Source: Rhodomicrobium sp. R_RK_3 (GTDB taxonomy: Bacteria > Pseudomonadota > Alphaproteobacteria > Rhizobiales > Rhodomicrobiaceae). From it: a stretch of DNA of 64,000 bases. The stretch spans positions 124,001 to 188,000 of the forward strand of contig NZ_MWLK01000006.1 in assembly GCF_002198715.1 (NCBI RefSeq), given 5' to 3'. Shown here piece after piece: positions 16,875-28,007 of the stretch. The position numbers were made by a program, and so were the translations under genes. Positions within the stretch are counted from its first letter, which is position 1. Each line of letters starts with the position of its first letter. The notes beneath the pieces are model-generated. The model saw only the letters and a program-made list of their open reading frames with translations, had not been told where the DNA came from and ran no database searches.

Positions 16875-16988
16875 GCGCGGGATCATCCGGGGAGAAATTC
16901 GCAAGTTTTTGAAATACGCGGAACGCCCGACCTGCTAAGCGCTGCCCGGTTGCGACTGCGCGAGGCTGGGGCACTTCCGGAGGCCGTA

Positions 16989-18140
16989 TTGACTTTGCTG
17001 AACGACGAGCGGACAGGCAGGCGCGCGGCACTTCCGGTGCTCTACAAGGCCGCCGGCATCGTGGCGCTGGTGCTGGCCGGCGCGGTTGCCTATTTCTGCT
17101 TCTGGCCGATTCCGGCCGAACCGGTTTCCTGGCCGGCGCAGACGCCGCCCGGCTATACTGGGGCCTTCGCGCCCAACACCCGCCTGGCGGCGCTGCGGAC
17201 GATCGATCTCGGACAGGAAATCGGGCCGGAGCACATCGCGATCGGACCTGACGGCAAGCTCTATGCCGCGATGTTGAGCGGCAATCTGCTGCGCATGGAC
17301 CCGGACGGCAGCAAGCCGGAGGTCTTCGCGAATACGGGCGGACGCGTGCTCGGCTTCGCCTTCGATGCGCAAGGCCGCATGATCGCCGCCGACGCCGTGA
17401 AAGGGCTGCTCGCCATCGGCCCGGACGGGCGCGCCAGCGTGCTGGCCGATCAGGTGACCCCCAGCGATCCGGTCAGCTACGCCAATTCCGTCGTCGTGGC
17501 GCCGGACGGGACCATCTATTTCACCAATGCCTCGACGCGCTTCTCTCCCCCGCAATGGGGCGGCACCTATGAAGCCAGCGTGCTCGACATTCTGGAGCAA
17601 TCGGCGACCGGCCGCGTGCTCGCCTATGATCCGGCCGCCGGGCGGACGCGGATCGTCGCGCACGGCCTCTCCTTCGCCAACGGCATCGCCCTGGGCGCCG
17701 ACGGCCGCACCCTGTTCGTCAACGAGACCGGCCGCTACCGCGTCTGGAAGATCGACGGCGGCGCGAGCAATCTCAACGTCCAGAGCGGCTCGCCACAGGC
17801 GAGGATCCTGCTCGACAACCTGCCGGGCTACCCGGACAACCTGATGCGCGGGCGCGATGGCCGCATCTGGGTCGGGCTGTTCAAGCCGCGCAATCCGGCG
17901 GCGGATTCGCTCGCCGAAAAGCCGTTCCTGAGGAAGGTGCTGCTGAGGCTGCCGCGATCGCTTCTGCCGCTCGGGGAGTCTTACGGCCACGTCTTCGCCA
18001 TCGACGAGGACGGCCGGGTCACCGAGGATCTGCAAGACCCGAGCGGCGCCTATCCGGAAACCACGGGCGCCACCGAGACGGCGGAGCGCCTCTATATCCA
18101 TAGCCTGCATGCGCATGGCATCGGCTGGCTGCCGCGATGA
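16989..18140 (+). CDS. SMP-30/strictosidine-synthase-like beta-propeller, membrane-anchored
   Basis: 383 residues. One N-terminal membrane anchor (AGIVALVLAGAVAYFCFWPI) is followed by a six-blade propeller with repeats such as IGPDGKLYAAML, APDGTIYFTNAS and LGADGRTLFVNETGRYRVW. The last is typical of the strictosidine-synthase/APMAP group, enzymes or hydrolases acting on lactones and esters. TTG 16989 follows GGAGG by 5 nt and is the best start; no ATG fits. The stop overlaps the next gene by ATGA. Confidence 0.82.
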   Translation: MTLLNDERTGRRAALPVLYKAAGIVALVLAGAVAYFCFWPIPAEPVSWPAQTPPGYTGAFAPNTRLAALRTIDLGQEIGPEHIAIGPDGKLYAAMLSGNLLRMDPDGSKPEVFANTGGRVLGFAFDAQGRMIAADAVKGLLAIGPDGRASVLADQVTPSDPVSYANSVVVAPDGTIYFTNASTRFSPPQWGGTYEASVLDILEQSATGRVLAYDPAAGRTRIVAHGLSFANGIALGADGRTLFVNETGRYRVWKIDGGASNLNVQSGSPQARILLDNLPGYPDNLMRGRDGRIWVGLFKPRNPAADSLAEKPFLRKVLLRLPRSLLPLGESYGHVFAIDEDGRVTEDLQDPSGAYPETTGATETAERLYIHSLHAHGIGWLPR

Positions 18141-18805
18141 GGGGCATTGGCGGCAACCGGATAGCCGAGGCGTTCGGGATGCATTGGATGGCTGACAGGC
18201 TGGCGCGAGCGGCTCGCTTGGGATTGATCGCGGCCGCCGCGATATTTGGCGTCGTCACGATGCCCTCCACCGGGGCAGCGCTCGCCGGCGACGCGCCCCG
18301 GCCGGCGGCGTCGCTGGAGGAGATCTACATTCTCCGCAGTATCAGGGAACCGCGCGAGCCCGCCGATGGCTGGTGCGCCTCCGCCAGAACGGGATTCGAG
18401 CCGTTTCCAGCGGATGCCGAGCGCTTCTTCTCGTTCTGGAGCCTCCAGCTCAATCTGGAGGACGGAAAGGTGGCCGACGCGAAGGCACGGCGGGTCGCCG
18501 AACTCCGCGCCTGCTTCGGCGCCACCAGCGAACGGCCGCGCCAAAACTTCTATGCCGAGGTGAGCTTGGGCTCGCTGTCCTTTCGCGGCGTCGGCGAGTG
18601 CCTGGCGCTCAAGGTCGATTTCCCCGAGGCCGGCCTGTTTCCCGTCCGCTGTCAGCTCGTCCTCAGCGGATTGCCGGCCCCCTATGTCGGCGGGGTTCTG
18701 ACGACGAACACGCTGACGAGCAAGGCGCCCTTCGGCGGCGACACCGATCCACCCGGATACACCCAGGCCTCGATCGCCACGATCCGCCTATGGAAGTCGC
18801 GCTAG
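18137..18805 (+). CDS. exported hypothetical protein
   Basis: 222 residues, no family recognised. A hydrophobic signal segment (LGLIAAAAIFGVVTMPSTG) ends near residue 50, so the mature protein is about 170 residues. Four Cys (GWCASA, RACFG, GECLAL, VRCQL) could form two disulfides in the periplasm. It is translationally coupled to the propeller gene, suggesting a shared role. ATG 18137 is used because of the overlap; ATG 18179 is an alternative. Confidence 0.65.
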   Translation: MRGIGGNRIAEAFGMHWMADRLARAARLGLIAAAAIFGVVTMPSTGAALAGDAPRPAASLEEIYILRSIREPREPADGWCASARTGFEPFPADAERFFSFWSLQLNLEDGKVADAKARRVAELRACFGATSERPRQNFYAEVSLGSLSFRGVGECLALKVDFPEAGLFPVRCQLVLSGLPAPYVGGVLTTNTLTSKAPFGGDTDPPGYTQASIATIRLWKSR

Positions 18806-18988
18806 CGAACCGCTCCGCGACCAGCGATCCGCTGCCTGAGCGAAATAGACGATCTCCTGTCCGCCATTGGTCATAATCGTCTTTGAGTTTCCAGAACCCC
18901 AGGCTTTCACAATATTAGTGACGTCTCGCTCCGGCTGAACAAGCCCCGACAAGTCTCCGCAGTAAGTTTCGTTCGTGTTACTCTCCAA
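18788..18988 (-). pseudogene. possible remnant of a small exported protein
   Basis: On the minus strand a frame opened after TAG near 19057 reads KLGQLFGLLESNTNETYC and later VTNIVKAWGSGNSKT and NGGQEIVYFAQ. This resembles the C-terminal part of small proteins with an AWG-P-x-T, NG...-Y-pattern. No ATG and no ribosome site were found (a TTG at 18988 is the best start). It may be a decayed gene end. The reading frame overlaps the 3' end of the gene at 18137 by 18 bp. Confidence 0.25.
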
Positions 18989-19068
18989 AAGTCCGAATAA
19001 CTGCCCGAGTTTGAAAACAAGCCGGGATGTTCGGATCCTGATTCGTGTTACATTCTAGGGAGGTAGCA

Positions 19069-20178
19069 ATGAACAGACGCAAATTTCTGGCAATGACGGC
19101 GGCTGCGGCGGCCGTCACCGCGAAAGCGGCCTCTGCCGCAACCGCGATCCCGCCCGGGCAAACGGGGGCCCCGACCCCGTCGACCGCGCCCCTCCCGCTG
19201 GGGCCGCTGCCGGGCAGCCGCTATCCGGATTCCCGCCTGGAATCCGCCAAGCCCGCCGCCACATTCGGGCCGAACGGCTTCCCCGCCTTCGCCGGCACCA
19301 TGGCCGTCGAGCGCGTCGCCACCGGCTTCCGCTGGGCCGAGGGGCCGGTCTACTTCCCGGCCGGGCGCTATGTGCTGTTCAGCGACATTCCCAATAACCG
19401 CATCATGCGCTTCAGCGAGGATGACGGTCATCTCAGCGTCTACCGCCAGCCGTCGATGAATTCGAACGGCAACACCATCGACCGGGAGGGGCGGCTGATC
19501 ACCTGCGAGCATAGCGGCCGGCGGGTGACCCGCACCGAGCTCGACGGCTCGATCACCGTCATCGCCGACAAATATAATGGCAAGCGGCTGAACTCGCCGA
19601 ACGATGCGGTGGTCGCCGCCGACGGCTCGATCTGGTTCACCGATCCGGTCTACGGCATCGGCGGGTTTTACGAGGGCATCAAGGCCGATCCCGAGCAGGA
19701 AAAGCGCAATGTCTACCGGGTGGATCCGAAATCGGGCGAGATCCGGGTGGTCGCGGATGATTTTGTGGAGCCCAACGGCCTCTGCTTCTCGCCCGACGAG
19801 AAGAAGCTCTATGTCTGCGACACCGGCTTCACGGACGGGCCGCAGAACCCCTCGCATATCCGCGTCTTCGACGTCGAGCATGTGGGCGGCAAGCTGGTCA
19901 ACAGCAAAGTCTTCGCCGACATGCCCAAGCCCGCCATCACCGACGGCGTGCGTTGCGACACGGGCGGCCGGGTCTGGTGCTCGGTGGGCTGGGGCGATCC
20001 GAACGAGGACGGCGTGCGCGGCTACACGGCCGAGGGCGAATTGCTCGGCAAGATCCACATACCCGAAACCGTCGCCAATCTGTGCTTCGGCGGCCAGCAG
20101 CGGAACCGGCTGTATATTTGCGGCTCGACCTCGCTCTATGCCGTCTATACCAGCGTGCAGGGCGCCCTGAAGCCTTGA
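19069..20178 (+). CDS. SMP-30/gluconolactonase family protein, Tat-exported
   Basis: 369 residues. The N-terminus MNRRKFLAM followed by an Ala-rich stretch is a twin-arginine signal. The propeller has family motifs: RWAEGPVYFP, SNGNTIDREGRL, KRLNSPNDAVVAADGSIWFT and VEPNGLCFSPDEKKLYVCDTG, which carry the Glu/Asn/Asp metal ligands of gluconolactonase/regucalcin. It is expected to hydrolyse sugar lactones in the periplasm; the substrate is not shown. AGGGAGG lies 5 nt before the ATG. A second propeller gene lies 0.9 kb upstream. Confidence 0.9.
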   Translation: MNRRKFLAMTAAAAAVTAKAASAATAIPPGQTGAPTPSTAPLPLGPLPGSRYPDSRLESAKPAATFGPNGFPAFAGTMAVERVATGFRWAEGPVYFPAGRYVLFSDIPNNRIMRFSEDDGHLSVYRQPSMNSNGNTIDREGRLITCEHSGRRVTRTELDGSITVIADKYNGKRLNSPNDAVVAADGSIWFTDPVYGIGGFYEGIKADPEQEKRNVYRVDPKSGEIRVVADDFVEPNGLCFSPDEKKLYVCDTGFTDGPQNPSHIRVFDVEHVGGKLVNSKVFADMPKPAITDGVRCDTGGRVWCSVGWGDPNEDGVRGYTAEGELLGKIHIPETVANLCFGGQQRNRLYICGSTSLYAVYTSVQGALKP

Positions 20179-20405
20179 CCCGGGCCGGGGCACCGCTGGC
20201 GGTGTGTTGATCCCGTTCGCCGGACATCGCAGATTGCGGGCTGCCCTATCAGGCGGCCCGTAAGCATTTTGGCGGGGCGGCGATCCCTCAGACCGCCGCG
20301 CGCAGCGTTTGGGAACCGCGACTGTCCTCCATCGTTTTCGCACGAATGTCCGGTCAAGGTTTGCTATAGAGCTGCCAGTTCTGGCGGTTCCGGGAATTTG
20401 CTCGC

Positions 20406-21401
20406 ATGATAACGCTCTACGCAGTCGAGAATAGCGGCTTGCAGAAGCTCGCCTCCACGGTGGAGCTGAAGGACCGCTTCGGCAAGGCCACCTGGATCGA
20501 CCTGCAGGACCCGACAGCCGAGGAAGAGGTGACGGTCGAGCAGACCCTGGGCCTCAATATCCCGACGCGGGAGGAAATGCGGCAGATCGAGGAATCCTCG
20601 CGGATCTACGAGGAGCATGGCGGGCTGTTCATGACCGGCATCGTCATCGCGGGCATCTCCGAGCGCCGTCCGGTCCGTGCCGAGGTCATGTTCGTCGTGA
20701 CGCCGCAGCATCTGGTCACCATCCGCTATTCCGATCCGCTGCCCTTTCAGACCTTCCAGCAGAAATGCGCCCGCAAGCCGGAGGATCACGCCACCAGCGA
20801 TCTGCTTTTCGTCTCGCTGGTCGAGCAGATCGTGCAGCGCGTCGCCGACGTGCTGGAGAAGGTCACCGCCGATCTCGACGGCGTCGCGCATGAACTGTTC
20901 GGCGACCTGAATGACTCGCAGGGCGGCGCCAAGGCGCTGCAGCCGCATATCGATTTGCAGCGCGTCGTCCGCAAGCTCGGCCATTTCAGCGCCTTGCTGG
21001 CCAAGCTCGGCGAAAGCCTTTTGAGCTTCAGCCGCGTGCTGGCGTTTTTCCAGCAAAGCACCGAGGAGTGGCTGCAGAAGAGCGCCAAGGCGAAGGCCAA
21101 GTCGCTGACCCGGGACATCACCTCGCTGTCCGAATATTCGGCCCGCCTCGCCTCGCAGATCGGCCATCTGCAGGATGCGACCTTCAACCTGCTCAATATC
21201 GAGCAGAGCCGCATCATCAAGGTGTTCTCCATCGCCGCCGTGGTCTTCCTGCCGCCGACGCTGGTGGCGACGATTTACGGCATGAACTTCAAATATATGC
21301 CGGAGCTCAATTGGGCGCTCGGATATCCGTTCGCGCTGATCCTGATGGTGATCTCCGCCATCGTGCCGATCTATTGGTTCAAGCGAAGCGGGTGGCTGTG
21401 A
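20406..21401 (+). CDS. corA: CorA family magnesium transporter
   Basis: 331 residues. A large N-terminal cytoplasmic domain and long coiled helix end in two membrane segments at the C-terminus. The signature YGMNFKYMPELNW, containing the Gly-Met-Asn selectivity motif, lies between them (about residue 297). CorA proteins form pentameric channels for Mg2+ and sometimes Co2+ or Ni2+. It is a single gene after a 227-bp gap with no recognised feature. Confidence 0.93.
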   Translation: MITLYAVENSGLQKLASTVELKDRFGKATWIDLQDPTAEEEVTVEQTLGLNIPTREEMRQIEESSRIYEEHGGLFMTGIVIAGISERRPVRAEVMFVVTPQHLVTIRYSDPLPFQTFQQKCARKPEDHATSDLLFVSLVEQIVQRVADVLEKVTADLDGVAHELFGDLNDSQGGAKALQPHIDLQRVVRKLGHFSALLAKLGESLLSFSRVLAFFQQSTEEWLQKSAKAKAKSLTRDITSLSEYSARLASQIGHLQDATFNLLNIEQSRIIKVFSIAAVVFLPPTLVATIYGMNFKYMPELNWALGYPFALILMVISAIVPIYWFKRSGWL

Positions 21402-21566
21402 CTGGGGATAGCCCCTGCTCCCGCCGAGGCTTCGCCCGCGCGGCTAAGCTATTCATCCGCCTTATTCTTTTACACCGCTAATCAATCACATTTCCCACCA
21501 TGCAGTTGACAGGCTGCGGCGCGCGCGGGCTACTCGCTTTTTCTGTCGTCGCGGGAGCACGATCCA

Positions 21567-22865
21567 ATGACACTCAAAATCTCATGCGCCAAGTTCTGCC
21601 GAACTCTAGCCGCTGCTGCCGGCCTGCTGCTTGCCGCCGCGCCCGCCGTCCAGGCCGCCGATCCGGCCGCCGTCGTAAAGACTTATGCCGATATCGCGCA
21701 GGCCGGCTATGAGGACGCGGTCTCAACCGCCAAGACACTGCAAGCCGCTATCACCGCCTTCCTGGCCAAGCCGACGCCGGAGACCCAGAAGGCCGCGCGC
21801 GAAGCCTGGCTCGCCGCCCGCGTTCCCTACATGCAGACGGAGGCGTTCCGCTTCGGCAACAAGATCGTCGACGATTGGGAAGGCAAGGTGAATTCCTGGC
21901 CGCTCGATGAAGGGCTGATCGACTATGTCGACACCGCCTATGGCATCGAATCCGAAGAGAACGCGCTCTATGCCGCCAACGTCATCGCCAATGACAAGCT
22001 GACGCTCGGCGGCAAGGATATCGATGCCTCCAAGATCACCAAGACCCTGCTGGCGGACGAGCTGCATCAGGCGGGCGGCGTCGAGGCCAATGTCTCGATC
22101 GGCTATCACGCCGTGGAATTCCTGCTCTGGGGCCAGGATCTGAACGGCACCGGGCCCGGCGCCGGCGATCGCCCCGCCACCGATTTCGACGTCAAGAACT
22201 GCACCGGCGGCCATTGCGAACGCCGCGCCGAATATCTGCGCGTCGTCACCGATCTGCTGGTCGAGGATCTGGAATGGATGGCCGCGCAATGGGGACCCAC
22301 GGGCGATGCGCGCAAGGCCGTGACCGAGGACCCGGCCAAAGGCGTCGTCACCATCTTCACCGGGCTCGGCTCGCTCTCCTACGGCGAGCTGGCGGGCGAG
22401 CGCATGAAGCTCGGCCTGCTGCTGCACGATCCGGAGGAGGAGCATGATTGCTTCGCCGACAACACGCATAATTCGCATCACCTGAACATTGTCGGCATGC
22501 GGAATGTCTATCTCGGCTCGTATAAGCGCGTCGATGGCAGCACGGTCGCGGGCGCCAGCCCGGCCGATCTGGTGAAAGCCGCCTCGGCCGAGGGCGACCA
22601 GACTTTGCGTGCGGCGCTGGATGCCAGCCTTGCCGCCGCCGCCGCCCTGAAGCAGCGCGCCGAGAGCAAGGAGCGCTACGACCAGATGATCGGCGAGGGC
22701 AATGCCGAAGGCAACGCCGTGGTGCAGACCGTCATCGACAAGCTGCTCGATCAGACCAAGGCGGTCGAGCGCGCCGTCGCCGCGTTGAAGCTCGAGGCGA
22801 TCACCTTCGAGGGCTCCGACAGTCTCGATGATCCCAGCAAGGCGATGAAGGGCAAAAAGGGCTAA
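21567..22865 (+). CDS. imelysin family periplasmic protein (peptidase M75-like)
   Basis: 432 residues with a signal peptide (cleavage after VQAA, about residue 28). The imelysin/M75 motif GYHAVEFLLWGQD (GxHxxE) is at about residue 175, and the second family region VGMRNVYLGSYKRVDG is near 310. Imelysin-like proteins are iron-regulated and bind metal in the periplasm or outer membrane; peptidase activity is doubtful. GGGAG lies 9 nt before ATG. First gene of a four-gene set with a di-heme oxidoreductase, a second imelysin and a DUF1513 protein. Confidence 0.92.
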   Translation: MTLKISCAKFCRTLAAAAGLLLAAAPAVQAADPAAVVKTYADIAQAGYEDAVSTAKTLQAAITAFLAKPTPETQKAAREAWLAARVPYMQTEAFRFGNKIVDDWEGKVNSWPLDEGLIDYVDTAYGIESEENALYAANVIANDKLTLGGKDIDASKITKTLLADELHQAGGVEANVSIGYHAVEFLLWGQDLNGTGPGAGDRPATDFDVKNCTGGHCERRAEYLRVVTDLLVEDLEWMAAQWGPTGDARKAVTEDPAKGVVTIFTGLGSLSYGELAGERMKLGLLLHDPEEEHDCFADNTHNSHHLNIVGMRNVYLGSYKRVDGSTVAGASPADLVKAASAEGDQTLRAALDASLAAAAALKQRAESKERYDQMIGEGNAEGNAVVQTVIDKLLDQTKAVERAVAALKLEAITFEGSDSLDDPSKAMKGKKG

Positions 22866-22935
22866 CACCCTCGCGGCGCGGCGGATTTTGGCGACAAGGC
22901 TTCCGCGCCGCATGAATCCATTGCAATAAGGAGCG

Positions 22936-24483
22936 ATGAAAACACCCATGCGCTGGGGCGCCCGCCGGCCACGCCGATCGAGCATGCCGGGGGCCAGAGA
23001 CCGCCGGCTGGTTTTTCTCGCGAGCGCCTTCCTTGCCGCCGGCCTGCTGCGCGGCGCGGGCGCGGCCGGACTCGACGACCCGCAGGCGCAGGCCACCGCC
23101 GGTGCCGCGCTCGAGCCCGGCGAGGAATTGCCCGGCGGCGCGGCGACTTCGCGCAAGAGCGTCAACACACTCGACGCTTTCTCGCACGCCTCCGGCAATC
23201 TCGAATTCAAGCGCGAATTCGACTTCAAGATCGGCAATGGCATCTTCACCAAGCTCTGGGTCTCGGCGCCGGCCTCGACGAAATCCTCCGATGGGCTCGG
23301 GCCCCTCTACAACGCCAAATCCTGCCAGTCCTGCCACATCAAGGACGGACGCGGCCATCCGCCCCGCGCGAACTGGCCCGAGAGCGACGCCATCTCGATG
23401 CTGCTGCGGCTGTCGATCCCGGGCGAGGCGCAGCCTTCCGACAAGGCCGAATTCGGCGTCCTCGCCGACACCAAGCCTGAGCCGACCTACGGCACGCAAT
23501 TGCAGGACCTCTCGATCCAGGGCCAGATCGCCGAGGGCAAAATCCATGTCGACTATGCCGAGAGCGAGGTCGTGCTGGCCGACGGCGAGAAGGTCAGCCT
23601 CCGCAAGCCGGCCTATTCCATCGACAATCTCGGCTACGGCCCCTTGCATCCGGATACGCAGATCTCGCCGCGCATCGCGCCGCCGATGATCGGGCTCGGC
23701 CTGCTCGAAGCCATCCCGGAAGCCGCGATCCTCGCCCGCGCCGACCCAGGCGACAAGAATGGCGACGGCATTTCCGGTCGGCCGAACTGGGTGCGCGAGA
23801 GCGGCGGCGGCGCGGCGCGGCTGGGACGGTTCGGCTGGAAGGCGGGCAATCCGAGCATCGCCCAGCAATCCGCTGAAGCTTTTGCCGGCGACATCGGCAT
23901 TTCCAGTCCGCTGCTCGACAAGCCCTCGGGCGAGTGCACCGAGAAGCAGCCCGCCTGCCTCGGCGCGCCGAACGGCAACAGCCCGCCGGAGACCGGCGCC
24001 GAGATCAACAAGGAGCTGTTCGACCTCGTCGTCTTCTACTCGCAAAACCTCGCCGTGCCGGCCCGCCGCGACCCGGCCGCCGCAGAGGTGTTGCAAGGCA
24101 AGCGCCTGTTCAGCGCCATCGGCTGCGCCGCCTGCCACGCCCCCTCATCGACGACGGGCGACGCGCCGAACGCCCCGCACCTCTCCAATCAGACCATCTG
24201 GCCCTATACCGACCTGCTGCTGCACGACATGGGCGAGGGCCTTGCCGACAACCGGCCCGAGCGCGAGGCGAACGGGCGAGAATGGCGCACGCCGCCGCTC
24301 TGGGGCATCGGCCTGACCCAGACCGTCAACGGCCACACATTTTTCCTGCATGACGGGCGGGCGAGGAGTATTGTCGAAGCTATCCTGTGGCATTCCGGCG
24401 AGGCTCAGACATCGCGCAATGCCTTCGCCGCGCTGCCGAAAGTGGACCGTGACGCGCTGATCGCATTCGTGAATTCGCTGTGA
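22936..24483 (+). CDS. di-heme oxidoreductase (DHOR/thiol oxidoreductase family)
   Basis: 515 residues, exported by an N-terminal signal (after a long basic leader). Two c-type heme sites are visible: CQSCHIKDGRG near residue 130 and CAACHAP near residue 397. The family sequences DGLGPLYNAKSCQSCH, DPGDKNGDGISGRPN and LWGIGLTQTVNGHTFFLHDGR match the DHOR/MauG-like group. In many bacteria this protein sits between two imelysin genes, as here, and is believed to handle periplasmic iron redox. AAGGAG lies 5 nt before ATG. Confidence 0.93.
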   Translation: MKTPMRWGARRPRRSSMPGARDRRLVFLASAFLAAGLLRGAGAAGLDDPQAQATAGAALEPGEELPGGAATSRKSVNTLDAFSHASGNLEFKREFDFKIGNGIFTKLWVSAPASTKSSDGLGPLYNAKSCQSCHIKDGRGHPPRANWPESDAISMLLRLSIPGEAQPSDKAEFGVLADTKPEPTYGTQLQDLSIQGQIAEGKIHVDYAESEVVLADGEKVSLRKPAYSIDNLGYGPLHPDTQISPRIAPPMIGLGLLEAIPEAAILARADPGDKNGDGISGRPNWVRESGGGAARLGRFGWKAGNPSIAQQSAEAFAGDIGISSPLLDKPSGECTEKQPACLGAPNGNSPPETGAEINKELFDLVVFYSQNLAVPARRDPAAAEVLQGKRLFSAIGCAACHAPSSTTGDAPNAPHLSNQTIWPYTDLLLHDMGEGLADNRPEREANGREWRTPPLWGIGLTQTVNGHTFFLHDGRARSIVEAILWHSGEAQTSRNAFAALPKVDRDALIAFVNSL

Positions 24484-24490
24484 GGTTTTG

Positions 24491-25549
24491 ATGCGTGCGC
24501 TGCTGGGTTTGTTGATCCTCGCCGCCGGCATGGGCACGGCGAGCGCTCGGACCATCGGCGAGAAGGCCGTCGAGAACCACATCCGCCCGGCCTATCAGCG
24601 GCTGGCGACCGCGATGGCCGATCTTAGCACGGCGACGAATGCGTATTGCGCTGGCGGCGGGGACCGCGCAGCGCTCGATGCCGCGTTCAAGCAGGCGGTT
24701 CTCGGCTGGTCGGGCGTCGAGCATCTGCGCTTCGGCCCGATGTTGGCGGACAACCGCTTCGAGCGCTTCATGTTCTGGCCGGACCCGAAAAGCCTCGGCC
24801 GCAAGCAGCTCAATGCCGCGCTCGCCCAGAAGGATCAGACCGTGCTAAGCCCGGCGACATTGGGTGAGAAAAGCGTGGCGCTGCAAGGCTTGACCGCCTT
24901 CGAAGCGCTGATGTGGAGCGGCGACGCGGAAGGCGTGACCGCCTCCACGCCCGAGGACCAGGCCTTTGCCTGCCAGTTCGCCAAATCCATCGCGGCGCAT
25001 CTTACGCGGGTAGCGGCGGCGGTGCGCGACGAATGGGCCGTTAATGACGGCTTTGCCGCTAATCTGACCGCGCCGGGGCCGGAAAAACTCTATCACAACG
25101 ACAAGGAAGTCACGCTGGAGCTGTTCAAGGCGTTCACCACCGGCTTGCAGCAGACCCGCAATGCCAAGCTCAACCGCGTGCTGATGGGCAATCCGCAGGA
25201 AGCCCGGCCGCGCCGCGCCGCCTTCTGGCGCAGCGGCAATGCCGTCGCCTCGATCGAGGCCAATATCGAGGCCATCGAGGATCTGTATCGCAATGCCGGG
25301 CTCGGCGAGATCGTCAAGCAGGCCGGCACCGGCGAGGAGCGCTCGACGCTTGACCAGTTCGACCTGATCGAAAAGGCGCTGGACGGGCTGACCGGCACGC
25401 CGATCGCCGATGTGACGGCATCGAAGCCGAGCTGGGAGAAGCTGAATTCTGTCGTGTTCGGCCTGATTAACATTCAGGTGACGGGTGGACAGGCTATCGT
25501 AACCGGCGCAGCTCTGCCGATGAGCTTCAACGCGCTGGACGGAGATTGA
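24491..25549 (+). CDS. imelysin family protein, second copy
   Basis: 352 residues with a signal peptide ending SASA (about residue 18). Helical pattern with WSGVEHLRFGPML (GxE/H-type site), a second region LTAFEALMWSGDAEG, and C-terminal helices, as in short imelysin-like/Irp-type lipoproteins. It starts 7 bp after the di-heme oxidoreductase stop with GAGG before the ATG, and ends just before DUF1513, so all four genes are one operon. It is only distantly related to the first imelysin (21567-22865). Confidence 0.87.
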   Translation: MRALLGLLILAAGMGTASARTIGEKAVENHIRPAYQRLATAMADLSTATNAYCAGGGDRAALDAAFKQAVLGWSGVEHLRFGPMLADNRFERFMFWPDPKSLGRKQLNAALAQKDQTVLSPATLGEKSVALQGLTAFEALMWSGDAEGVTASTPEDQAFACQFAKSIAAHLTRVAAAVRDEWAVNDGFAANLTAPGPEKLYHNDKEVTLELFKAFTTGLQQTRNAKLNRVLMGNPQEARPRRAAFWRSGNAVASIEANIEAIEDLYRNAGLGEIVKQAGTGEERSTLDQFDLIEKALDGLTGTPIADVTASKPSWEKLNSVVFGLINIQVTGGQAIVTGAALPMSFNALDGD

Positions 25550-25551
25550 GC

Positions 25552-26676
25552 ATGAACATCTCGCGCCGCGATTTTCTCGCCGGAGCGCTCGCCGCGGGCG
25601 CGCTGCCGATGCTGCCGGGAGCGGCCTTGGCTTTGGCCGATGCGCCGAGCCTCTACGCCGCCTCCCGCCGCGAGGCCGACGGCTCCTACGCCGCCGTGCT
25701 GTTCACCGCCGAGGGCGACCGGGCGCGTCTCGCCCTCCCGGCGCGCGGCCACGACCTCACCTTCCGCCCCGGCACCGGCGATTGCGTCGTCTTCGCCCGC
25801 CGCCCCGGCACTTTCGCCGCCGTCTTCTCGCGCGATGACGCCGCCCGGCCGCCGCTCTGGTTCTCCGCGTCGGAGGGCCGCCATTTCGACGGCCATGGCG
25901 TCTTCTCCGGCGACGGCCGCCTGCTCTATTCCACCGAGAACGATTTCACCGGCGATGCCTCGCGCGGCGTCATCGGCGTGCGCGACGCGGGCGCGGGCTA
26001 CAAGCCGGTCGGCGAATTCCCCAGCGCCGGCATGGACCCGCACGACATGGCGCTGCTCTCCGATGGCCGCACGCTGGTCGTCGCCAATGGCGGCATCGAG
26101 CTGGACCCCGAGACCGGCCGCACCCCGCTCAACCTCGCGACGATGGAGCCCTCACTGGTCTATATCGACACCGCGACCGGGGACATTATCGAGAAGCATG
26201 TGCTGGACAAGGCCCTGCACAAGCTCTCCATCCGGCATCTGGCCGTCGCGGCGGGCGATCTGGTGGCGTTCGGCTGCCAATATGAAGGCGCGGCCGAGGA
26301 CTTCCCGCCGCTCGTGGGCTTCCACCGGCTCGGCGAGCGGCCCCTGCTGATGGCGCCGCCGCATGAGATCCATCGCGGGCTGAAGAACTATATCGGCTCG
26401 GTCGCGGCGGATGCCTCGGGCACGCTGATCGCAGCCTCCGCGCCCAAAGGCGGCCGCATCACCTTCTGGGACGCCGAAAGCCGCCGCTTCCTCGGCGAAG
26501 AGCGCCTGATCGACGGCTGCGGCGTCGCCGACGCGGCCGAAGCCGGCAATTTCGTCCTCACCAGCGGCGAAGGCTGCGTCATCGAGCATTCCCTAAAGAC
26601 CGGCGCCAGCCACGCCGACGCTTCGCTCGACTGGTCCGGCGTGAGCTGGGACAATCATGTGATCCGGCTTTGGTGA
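25552..26676 (+). CDS. DUF1513 domain-containing protein, Tat-exported
   Basis: 374 residues. The twin-arginine signal is SRRDFLAGALAAGALPML. The mature domain is a beta-propeller-like DUF1513 with DPHDMALLSDGRTLVVANGG, SIRHLAVAAGDLVAFGCQYEG and NYIGSVAADASGTLIAASAPKGG. DUF1513 proteins commonly end imelysin/di-heme oxidoreductase operons, which supports a periplasmic role in iron handling; the exact activity is unknown. The ATG is 2 bp after the previous stop. Confidence 0.9.
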   Translation: MNISRRDFLAGALAAGALPMLPGAALALADAPSLYAASRREADGSYAAVLFTAEGDRARLALPARGHDLTFRPGTGDCVVFARRPGTFAAVFSRDDAARPPLWFSASEGRHFDGHGVFSGDGRLLYSTENDFTGDASRGVIGVRDAGAGYKPVGEFPSAGMDPHDMALLSDGRTLVVANGGIELDPETGRTPLNLATMEPSLVYIDTATGDIIEKHVLDKALHKLSIRHLAVAAGDLVAFGCQYEGAAEDFPPLVGFHRLGERPLLMAPPHEIHRGLKNYIGSVAADASGTLIAASAPKGGRITFWDAESRRFLGEERLIDGCGVADAAEAGNFVLTSGEGCVIEHSLKTGASHADASLDWSGVSWDNHVIRLW

Positions 26677-26827
26677 TCCAGTAACACCCGATCGAGTCGC
26701 TCGCGCTCCGAACCGTCGGATGCGACCGCGTGCGCTACCCATCCCCATCGTGGCGCACCGCATTGGCGCGCTCCCCAGGAAGCGCTTGACTCCCTGGATC
26801 TGCCTTTGTATTTAACCAGCTCGCTAA

Positions 26828-26843
26828 TTAACCAATAGGTATA
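26828..26843. promoter_or_regulatory. imperfect dyad TTAACC-AATA-GGTATA, candidate operator
   Basis: It lies 26 bp before the SRPBCC gene and overlaps a TATA-rich promoter-like stretch. Many SRPBCC (AHSA1) genes are controlled by a neighbouring ArsR-type repressor that binds such dyads. No ArsR gene is adjacent here, so the assignment is inference. A second TTAACCA lies 16 bp upstream in the same direction. Confidence 0.3.
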
Positions 26844-26868
26844 TAACGCGCCGTTAGAGGAATCCCGC

Positions 26869-27336
26869 ATGACCGAAAGATCCGCCTCGCACGCCACCTT
26901 CGTCATCGAGCGGCGCTTCACCGCCTCGCCCGCGCAAGTTTTCGCCGCCTGGGCCGATCCGGTCGCCAAGAAACGCTGGTTCGGCGGCGATGCCGGCTGG
27001 GAGGAGCGCCATTACGAGCTGGATTTCCGCGTCGGCGGGCGCGAGTACAATTCCGCCCGGCGCACCGGCGGCCAGCGGCATATCTACGAGGCGCGCTATC
27101 AGGATATCATCCCCGATACCCGCATTATCGCCACTTACGACCTGCATCTGGATGCGACGCGCATTTCCGTCTCGCTGATGACGGTCGAGTTCAAGCCGGA
27201 CGGAACGGGCACGCGGCTGGTCTTTACCGAGCAGGGCGTCTTTCTCGACGGCCACGACATTGCCGACCAGCGCCAGATGGGCACCGAGTGGCTGCTCGAC
27301 GCCCTCGCCGCCGACCTGGAACGCAATGCGGGCTGA
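26869..27336 (+). CDS. SRPBCC/AHSA1 family protein
   Basis: 155 residues of the activator-of-Hsp90-ATPase-like START fold: it opens FVIERRFTASPAQVFAAWADP, continues KKRWFGGDAGW and LDFRVGGREY, and ends with the C-terminal helix TEWLLDALAADLERNAG. Small bacterial members bind unknown hydrophobic ligands. It is followed 23 bp later by a GST gene in the same direction, a pairing that is common for this family, so the two probably share a transcript. Confidence 0.9.
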   Translation: MTERSASHATFVIERRFTASPAQVFAAWADPVAKKRWFGGDAGWEERHYELDFRVGGREYNSARRTGGQRHIYEARYQDIIPDTRIIATYDLHLDATRISVSLMTVEFKPDGTGTRLVFTEQGVFLDGHDIADQRQMGTEWLLDALAADLERNAG

Positions 27337-27359
27337 GCCCGCCAAATCGGAGAGCCGCC

Positions 27360-28007
27360 ATGCCGCTCACGCTATACTATCATCCGCTGGCCTCGTATTG
27401 CCATAAGGTGCTGATCGCGCTCTATGAAAACGAGACGCCGTTCACGCCGCACCTCGTCGATCTCGGCGACCCGGAGGCCCGCGCCAAATTCGCGGCGCTC
27501 TGGCCGCTCGCCAAGATGCCGGTGCTCCGCGACGAGGCGAAGGACCGGACGGTGCCGGAATCCTCGATCATCATCGAATATCTGGAGCAGCATTATCCCG
27601 GCCCCGCCCCGCTGATCCCGGCCGACCCCGATCTGGCCCGCCACGCCCGCTTCGGCGACCGCTTCTTCGACATCTATGTCCATACGCCGATGCAGAAGGT
27701 GGTCGAGGACCGGCTGCGCCCGGAGGGGCGGAAAGACCCGCATGGCGTCGAACAGGCGATGGCGGCGCTGCGGCAGGCCTATGGCATGATCGACCGGCAG
27801 ATGGCGGCGAGCCGATGGGCGATGGGCGAGAGCTTCAGCATGGCCGATTGCGCCGCCGCGCCGGCTCTGTTCTACGCCGACAAGCTGCTGCCGCTCGGCG
27901 GCCATCCTAATGCCGCCGCCTATTTCGAGCGGCTGCGCCAGCGGCCCTCCTTCGCCCGCGTCCTGCGGGAGGCCGAGCCGTATTTCGCGATGTTCCCGCA
28001 AGCATAG
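27360..28007 (+). CDS. glutathione S-transferase family protein
   Basis: 215 residues. The N-terminal thioredoxin fold reads LTLYYHPLASYCHKVLIALYE, with KMPVLRD holding the cis-Pro and PESSIIIEYLEQ the glutathione-binding Glu-Ser pair. The helical C-domain has GESFSMADCAAAPALFY. CGGAGAG lies 5-10 nt before ATG 27360. It follows the SRPBCC gene and probably detoxifies small electrophiles; the substrate is not known. Confidence 0.92.
   Translation: MPLTLYYHPLASYCHKVLIALYENETPFTPHLVDLGDPEARAKFAALWPLAKMPVLRDEAKDRTVPESSIIIEYLEQHYPGPAPLIPADPDLARHARFGDRFFDIYVHTPMQKVVEDRLRPEGRKDPHGVEQAMAALRQAYGMIDRQMAASRWAMGESFSMADCAAAPALFYADKLLPLGGHPNAAAYFERLRQRPSFARVLREAEPYFAMFPQA

Follow-up and report, generated by a model that had tools for sequence, protein, structure and literature searches.

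The stretch of DNA analyzed here (the window) comprises 64,000 nucleotides from Rhodomicrobium sp. R_RK_3 (NZ_MWLK01000006.1, positions 124,001 to 188,000). Its + strand carries, at 21567-26676, four tandem genes encoding an imelysin, a di-haem oxidoreductase (DHOR; DUF1111), a second imelysin and a DUF1513 protein. Pfam assigned imelysin 1 (PF09375; 21567..22865 in the list of open reading frames, ORFs) with an E-value of 9.5e-85, DHOR (PF06537; 22936..24483), which has two CxxCH motifs, with 2e-109, imelysin 2 (PF09375; 24491..25549) with 1.2e-44, and DUF1513 (PF07433; 25552..26676) with 6.2e-106, all four far above cut-off. With ATG starts, read from the translations, the intergenic gaps are 70, 7 and 2 bp; for imelysin 2 and DUF1513 the ORF list starts at TTG codons farther upstream (24488 and 25546), the next ATGs being at 24491 and 25552. 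The DUF1513 protein also matches TAT_signal (E 1.9e-5), and the signal sequences of the other three were judged by eye only. A sequence-only reading had described four exported proteins in one orientation with these gaps, namely two imelysins, a CxxCH di-haem enzyme and a DUF1513 protein exported by the twin-arginine (Tat) route, and the ORF list, Pfam and sequence motifs bear it out, the first three signals by eye. This operon is a further copy of a type already described in print, that of Pseudomonas aeruginosa PA4370-4373, which has two imelysins and a DUF1111 protein and is called Fur-regulated (PMC3143127; papers are cited throughout from excerpts). All four genes by which an operon of this type is recognized are present in the window set. 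We argue below that it is probably, with appreciable room for doubt, a module of the cell envelope produced during iron starvation.

Loci for comparison were chosen by similarity to the window imelysin 1, so the counts that follow are not a census. Twenty-four relatives matched imelysin 1, and 23 of their neighborhoods were compared (G014, a partial match, was left out); these 23, from genomes of the same order, plus the best 80 of at least 590 named loci gave 102 distinct loci, with L042 a duplicate of L073 (from a Hyphomicrobium metagenome-assembled genome of the window genome's order) and counted once. All four genes are present in 91 of the 102, and in 88 of these 91 they are collinear on one strand; L064, L075 and L088 instead have a divergent unit of DUF1513 and imelysin 2. 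The sequence-only reading, which did not mention that the operon has been published, had held that this gene order recurs in alphaproteobacteria. That proved correct, and the order is not confined to them: Bordetella, Achromobacter and Pollutimonas are also among the sources of the loci. The other 11 loci are incomplete. In four of them the contig stops close to the gene (L048, L067, L090, L115); five contain just imelysin 1 and DHOR (L055, L073, L080, L091, L105), and two just imelysin 1 (L035, L049), both in genomes with DHOR on another contig.

Imelysin 2 and DUF1513 are together present or together absent in all 102 loci. In a sample of 200 genomes from the window's phylum, 37 encode DUF1513 above cut-off and every one of them has at least two M75 genes, compared with 48 genomes that have any M75 gene; an M75 gene lies <500 bp upstream of 36 of the 38 DUF1513 genes. 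Given this co-presence and pairing, the operon seems to consist of two separable units, imelysin 1 plus DHOR and imelysin 2 plus DUF1513. Among 61 genomes of the same order, DHOR occurs in 24 of the 25 with imelysin 1 and in 4 of the 36 without it. In a tree of imelysin 1 and DHOR from 56 loci, the window joins the Methyloligella/Hyphomicrobiaceae loci L064, L065, L075 and L088, with low support (0.69).

The two imelysins differ at the family's GxHxxE motif, which reads GYHAVE in imelysin 1 and GLTAFE in imelysin 2. The latter's family has no His at the motif position in any of 74 rows, with the G kept in 70 and the E in 69. For imelysin 1, set A1 comprised 21 of 24 rows, and 11 of 77 extracted rows with a stop inside the stretch were left out of the motif count. 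Its closest solved structure is 7xrx (ICMP; 7xrx_A, E 6.2e-123), which we take to be a P. aeruginosa entry, and against the Leptospira LruB model it scores 128 bits (cut-off 850). A sequence search at E 0.001 found no solved relative of imelysin 2. A peptidase function of the imelysins was set aside on the basis of PMC3143127.

The c-haem motifs of DHOR, read from the sequence, are CQSCH (residues 130-134) and CAACH (397-401), and both are invariant in 47 of 47 aligned rows (of 75 extracted, thinned at 78% identity). The three DHORs least like the window's, at 38-40% identity, are those of L056, L057 and L138, where a multicopper oxidase gene precedes them. A profile search of the PDB with DHOR gave no credible relative, the best matches covering only short stretches. 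The predicted structure (predicted local distance difference test score, pLDDT, 85.2) has a sole PDB match under E 0.001, a weak one to 5c2v_C (E 2.4e-4; TM-score by target 0.35). This is chain C of hydrazine synthase, which we take to be di-haem. MauG and MbnH are protein-modifying di-haem enzymes, and DHOR might likewise oxidize an aromatic residue in one of the imelysins or in DUF1513, so that the modified protein binds metal. DHOR is indeed always or nearly always found with its partner (24 of the 25 genomes with imelysin 1 have it), and some Trp and Tyr residues of imelysin 1 are invariant. We nevertheless consider such a modifier quite unlikely: no solved structure closely matches the DHOR model, and the aromatic residues of imelysin 1 are equally kept in three loci without an adjoining DHOR, although this last comparison does not discriminate because the genomes of those three loci have DHOR elsewhere.

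The DUF1513 protein is predicted to be a beta-propeller. The model is mostly beta (mean pLDDT 92.9) and matches solved seven-bladed propellers of many kinds, with Z from 27.7 to 31.8 among the 50 matches listed; these include nitrous oxide reductase and a selenium-binding protein, both close to WD40 proteins in the list, and this variety makes the fold uninformative on function. A PDB profile search gave no credible relative here either, the top matches covering short stretches, and our literature search found no mention of DUF1513 or PF07433. In an alignment of 50 rows (of 72 extracted, thinned at 78% identity), His 69, 117, 166, 231 and 371 are invariant and His 113 is kept in 47. On the model, these conserved histidines may meet at the propeller axis. 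One could go further and suppose that DUF1513 is a metalloprotein, with the five invariant histidines as a metal or haem site, that it is a redox partner of DHOR, and that the His-less imelysin serves as adaptor. If so, the set would represent a novel type of periplasmic complex for iron redox chemistry and would do more than bind passively. We give this idea little credence, and it is weakened by the DSSP string, in which only three of the six conserved histidines (69, 113 and 166) stand at strand starts, each second in its strand, while the others lie within strands.

The 70-bp gap between imelysin 1 and DHOR (22866..22935) is occupied in some relatives. The pair bfd-bfr lies there in 19 of the 102 loci, and also in L067, where the contig ends; the Bfr is above the NCBIfam cut-off, and the ferredoxin scores 24.3 bits, just under the Pfam cut-off of 26. 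Other occupants are a porin-like protein (L040, L064, L065 and L073; recognized by eye, with no Pfam match), OprB (L036, L075), multicopper oxidase (L056, L057, L138) and ApbE (L047), all counts being lower bounds obtained with one query per family. In these relatives the gap is an accessory slot for iron-storage or oxidase genes. The order irpA-bfd-bfr has already been published for Rhodobacter sphaeroides (PMC4618611), as has a porin beside a thiol oxidoreductase and an M75 protein for Bacteroides thetaiotaomicron (PMC10434189); we found no description of the slot as such in the excerpts of the literature on these operons. The multicopper oxidase genes in three of these slots, together with the binding of Zn and Cu by EfeM, another M75 protein (dissociation constants 3.4 and 4.1 uM; PMC9174327), could point to a role of the set in handling copper or some other metal instead of iron. 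The bfd-bfr pairs in the same slot and the iron regulation of relatives (PMC3143127, PMC4618611, PMC3413700, PMC10434189, PMC13066512) make that very improbable.

A de novo dyad search upstream of the related loci returned TTTAGAA-N3-TTCTAAA as its top dyad, which we take to be the Irr iron control element (ICE). With up to 3 mismatches, it precedes imelysin 1 in 40 of the 102 loci, where shuffles give about 0.8. The region between corA and the window operon (21402..21566) has no ICE or Fur consensus site. The best ICE match has 5 mismatches, and the ICE matrix scores -7.7 bits vs at least 19.1 for the 40 training sites; the best Fur match has 7 mismatches in the 19 consensus positions, as in shuffles, and across the 103 regions (window included) five have a Fur consensus match with up to 5 mismatches (0.6 expected). 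These consensus and matrix scans uphold the earlier judgment by eye that no convincing Fur or Irr site precedes the operon. The accompanying claim of iron regulation is sustained for relatives by published work and by the 40 ICE-bearing loci, but not by any Fur or Irr site at the window copy. A Mur-like consensus, also tried, stayed at shuffle level in all regions, and the scan for sigma-70-like promoters in 20300-27000 found none (0.7 expected).

The window genome itself encodes IrrA (NF045678, 212 bits, cut-off 150) and two further Fur-family proteins, and it contains six one-mismatch ICE sites: one beginning 99 bases before EfeU, two before a solute-binding protein, and one each before an Nfu-type scaffold gene, a hydrolase and a ferritin-domain gene (separated from its ICE by one short ORF; its Dps model score is below cut-off). 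With up to 2 mismatches, there are 9 sites vs 10 for the reversed pattern; only the location of the six, not the ICE count, carries weight. Because IrrA and ICE sites occur elsewhere in the genome and none precedes the operon, an Irr system seems to be present, with this operon outside it as far as this test goes. The tree neighbors L064, L065, L075 and L088 are also without an ICE at up to 3 mismatches. A 17-bp palindromic motif common to the window's clade was rejected as too weak (13.4 bits per site, with 11.7-12.9 in six shuffles), and the motif sampler is a weak tool, as it failed to recover the known ICE sites from three of nine control regions trimmed to 200 bp. Separately, five Bordetella/Achromobacter loci (L059-L063) share the 17-mer CAAACGAAAATTGTTTA about 90 bp before imelysin 1, which may reflect mere relatedness since the species are close. 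Four Hyphomicrobiaceae loci (L064, L073, L075, L115) have similar palindromes about 34 bp before imelysin 1, which in L064 and L075 read CAGGG-N7-CCCTG; the sampler placed no site of this kind near the window imelysin 1.

Gene content, order, recurrence, co-inheritance, the lost His and the c-haem motifs come from the present analysis, and iron-dependent expression comes from papers on relatives. The R. sphaeroides irpA gene (RSP_1548) rises about 4-fold in the wild type and 19.7-fold in an irr mutant in low iron (PMC3413700), and RSP_1548-1543 are raised in an iscR mutant, with RSP_1545 below the authors' cut-off (PMC4618611). The porin/thiol oxidoreductase/M75 locus of B. thetaiotaomicron is up 69- to 324-fold in low iron according to the text of the paper and 63- to 324-fold according to its table (PMC10434189), and dipyridyl induces what is read as one operon in Leptospira, made up of lruB and the genes of a di-haem oxidoreductase and another imelysin (PMC13066512). 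Operons of this kind are thus iron-responsive in three phyla by published data (PMC4618611, PMC3413700, PMC10434189, PMC13066512). A term search of the main text of a Caulobacter iron transcriptome and of a Brucella Irr DNA affinity purification sequencing (DAP-seq) study found no imelysin. The same Leptospira genes, however, are also up on lethal peroxide (PMC7567364) and in a mutant lacking the peroxide regulators PerRA and PerRB (PMC8638851), and Pfam calls DHOR a putative peroxidase. The operon might then serve envelope peroxide defense, with DHOR mainly a peroxidase, the imelysins holding free metal, and iron regulation merely reflecting the link between iron and oxidative stress. We regard this as rather unlikely, given the strong induction of those Leptospira genes by an iron chelator (PMC13066512) and the Irr-type boxes, or IscR and Fur control, of relatives (PMC4618611, PMC3143127).

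We therefore favor the iron-starvation module, and several observations weigh against it in addition to the Leptospira peroxide responses and the lack of an ICE or Fur site before the window copy. None of the four genes encodes a membrane transporter. Ferric iron at up to about 5:1 caused no significant change in the spectrum of EfeM (PMC9174327), and thermofluor tests on two imelysin-like proteins of solved structure gave no binding of haem or ferric ion, in data not shown there (PMC3143127). Neither imelysin 1 nor DHOR has a match in any of the seven genomes of the same family (G001-G007, two of them <90% complete), so the operon looks sporadic in its own family.

We infer every biochemical step of the module, and the sequence-only reading's suggestion that the set ties control of the iron oxidation state to uptake is likewise conjectural. 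GxHxxE in imelysin 1 would be the binding site for an iron complex or a divalent metal, and DHOR, in the same compartment, could be the electron-transfer enzyme, acting on the iron held there, on its ligand or on a partner protein. Imelysin 2, lacking the His, may serve the DUF1513 propeller as an adaptor or as a binder of altered substrates, and the two would make up a second, separable unit. Freed iron would enter via a separate inner-membrane transporter, for which the genome offers two candidates behind predicted Irr boxes: EfeUOB and the solute-binding protein gene, whose substrate is unproven. What the present analysis adds is the ICE before the operon in relatives but not before the window copy, the accessory slot, the co-inheritance of imelysin 2 and DUF1513, and the invariant DUF1513 histidines; the slot, the two separable gene pairs, the Irr-type box in relatives and the histidines are handles for tests.

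Upstream of the operon, a CorA-type transporter gene (20406-21401, same strand) ends 165 bp before it, and a CorA query matched nothing around the operon in 23 related loci. Farther upstream are two SMP-30/strictosidine-synthase-like proteins (16950-18140 and 19045-20178), the second of which opens, judged by eye, with a Tat-like NRRKFL. No FTR1-type permease or DyP peroxidase was found among the 10 proteins scanned at 16950-28004.

We take PA4373 to be a DUF1513 protein. The window operon resembles PA4370-4373 in having an imelysin, a DUF1111 protein and a GxxxxE imelysin in the same order, with PA4373 last, and differs in that the P. aeruginosa set is called Fur-regulated (PMC3143127) whereas no Fur or Irr box was found before the window copy. 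The R. sphaeroides set similarly has irpA, an oxidoreductase, a signal-peptide protein and a hypothetical protein; the oxidoreductase, RSP_1545, is tabulated as a probable thiol oxidoreductase with 2 cytochrome c heme-binding sites, and RSP_1545-1543 are read as cotranscribed with hemP-irpA-bfd-bfr (PMC4618611). From their position, RSP_1544 and RSP_1543 would be imelysin 2 and DUF1513. R. sphaeroides carries hemP and bfd-bfr, whereas the window has only 70 bp between genes 1 and 2. The Leptospira lruB operon shares the order imelysin, di-haem oxidoreductase, imelysin, but DUF1513, which the window has, is not mentioned in the excerpts of that paper (PMC13066512). EfeUOB/EfeM resembles the window set in combining M75 proteins with a haem peroxidase in an iron system, and a separate EfeU-EfeO-EfeB set, together with an EfeM-like protein, lies on another contig of the window genome (C19, L058:7939-12165). 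Contrary to the wording of PMC3143127, EfeB here belongs to the DyP peroxidases and not to DHOR; in this genome it is thus a family apart from DUF1111, and the two systems exist side by side.

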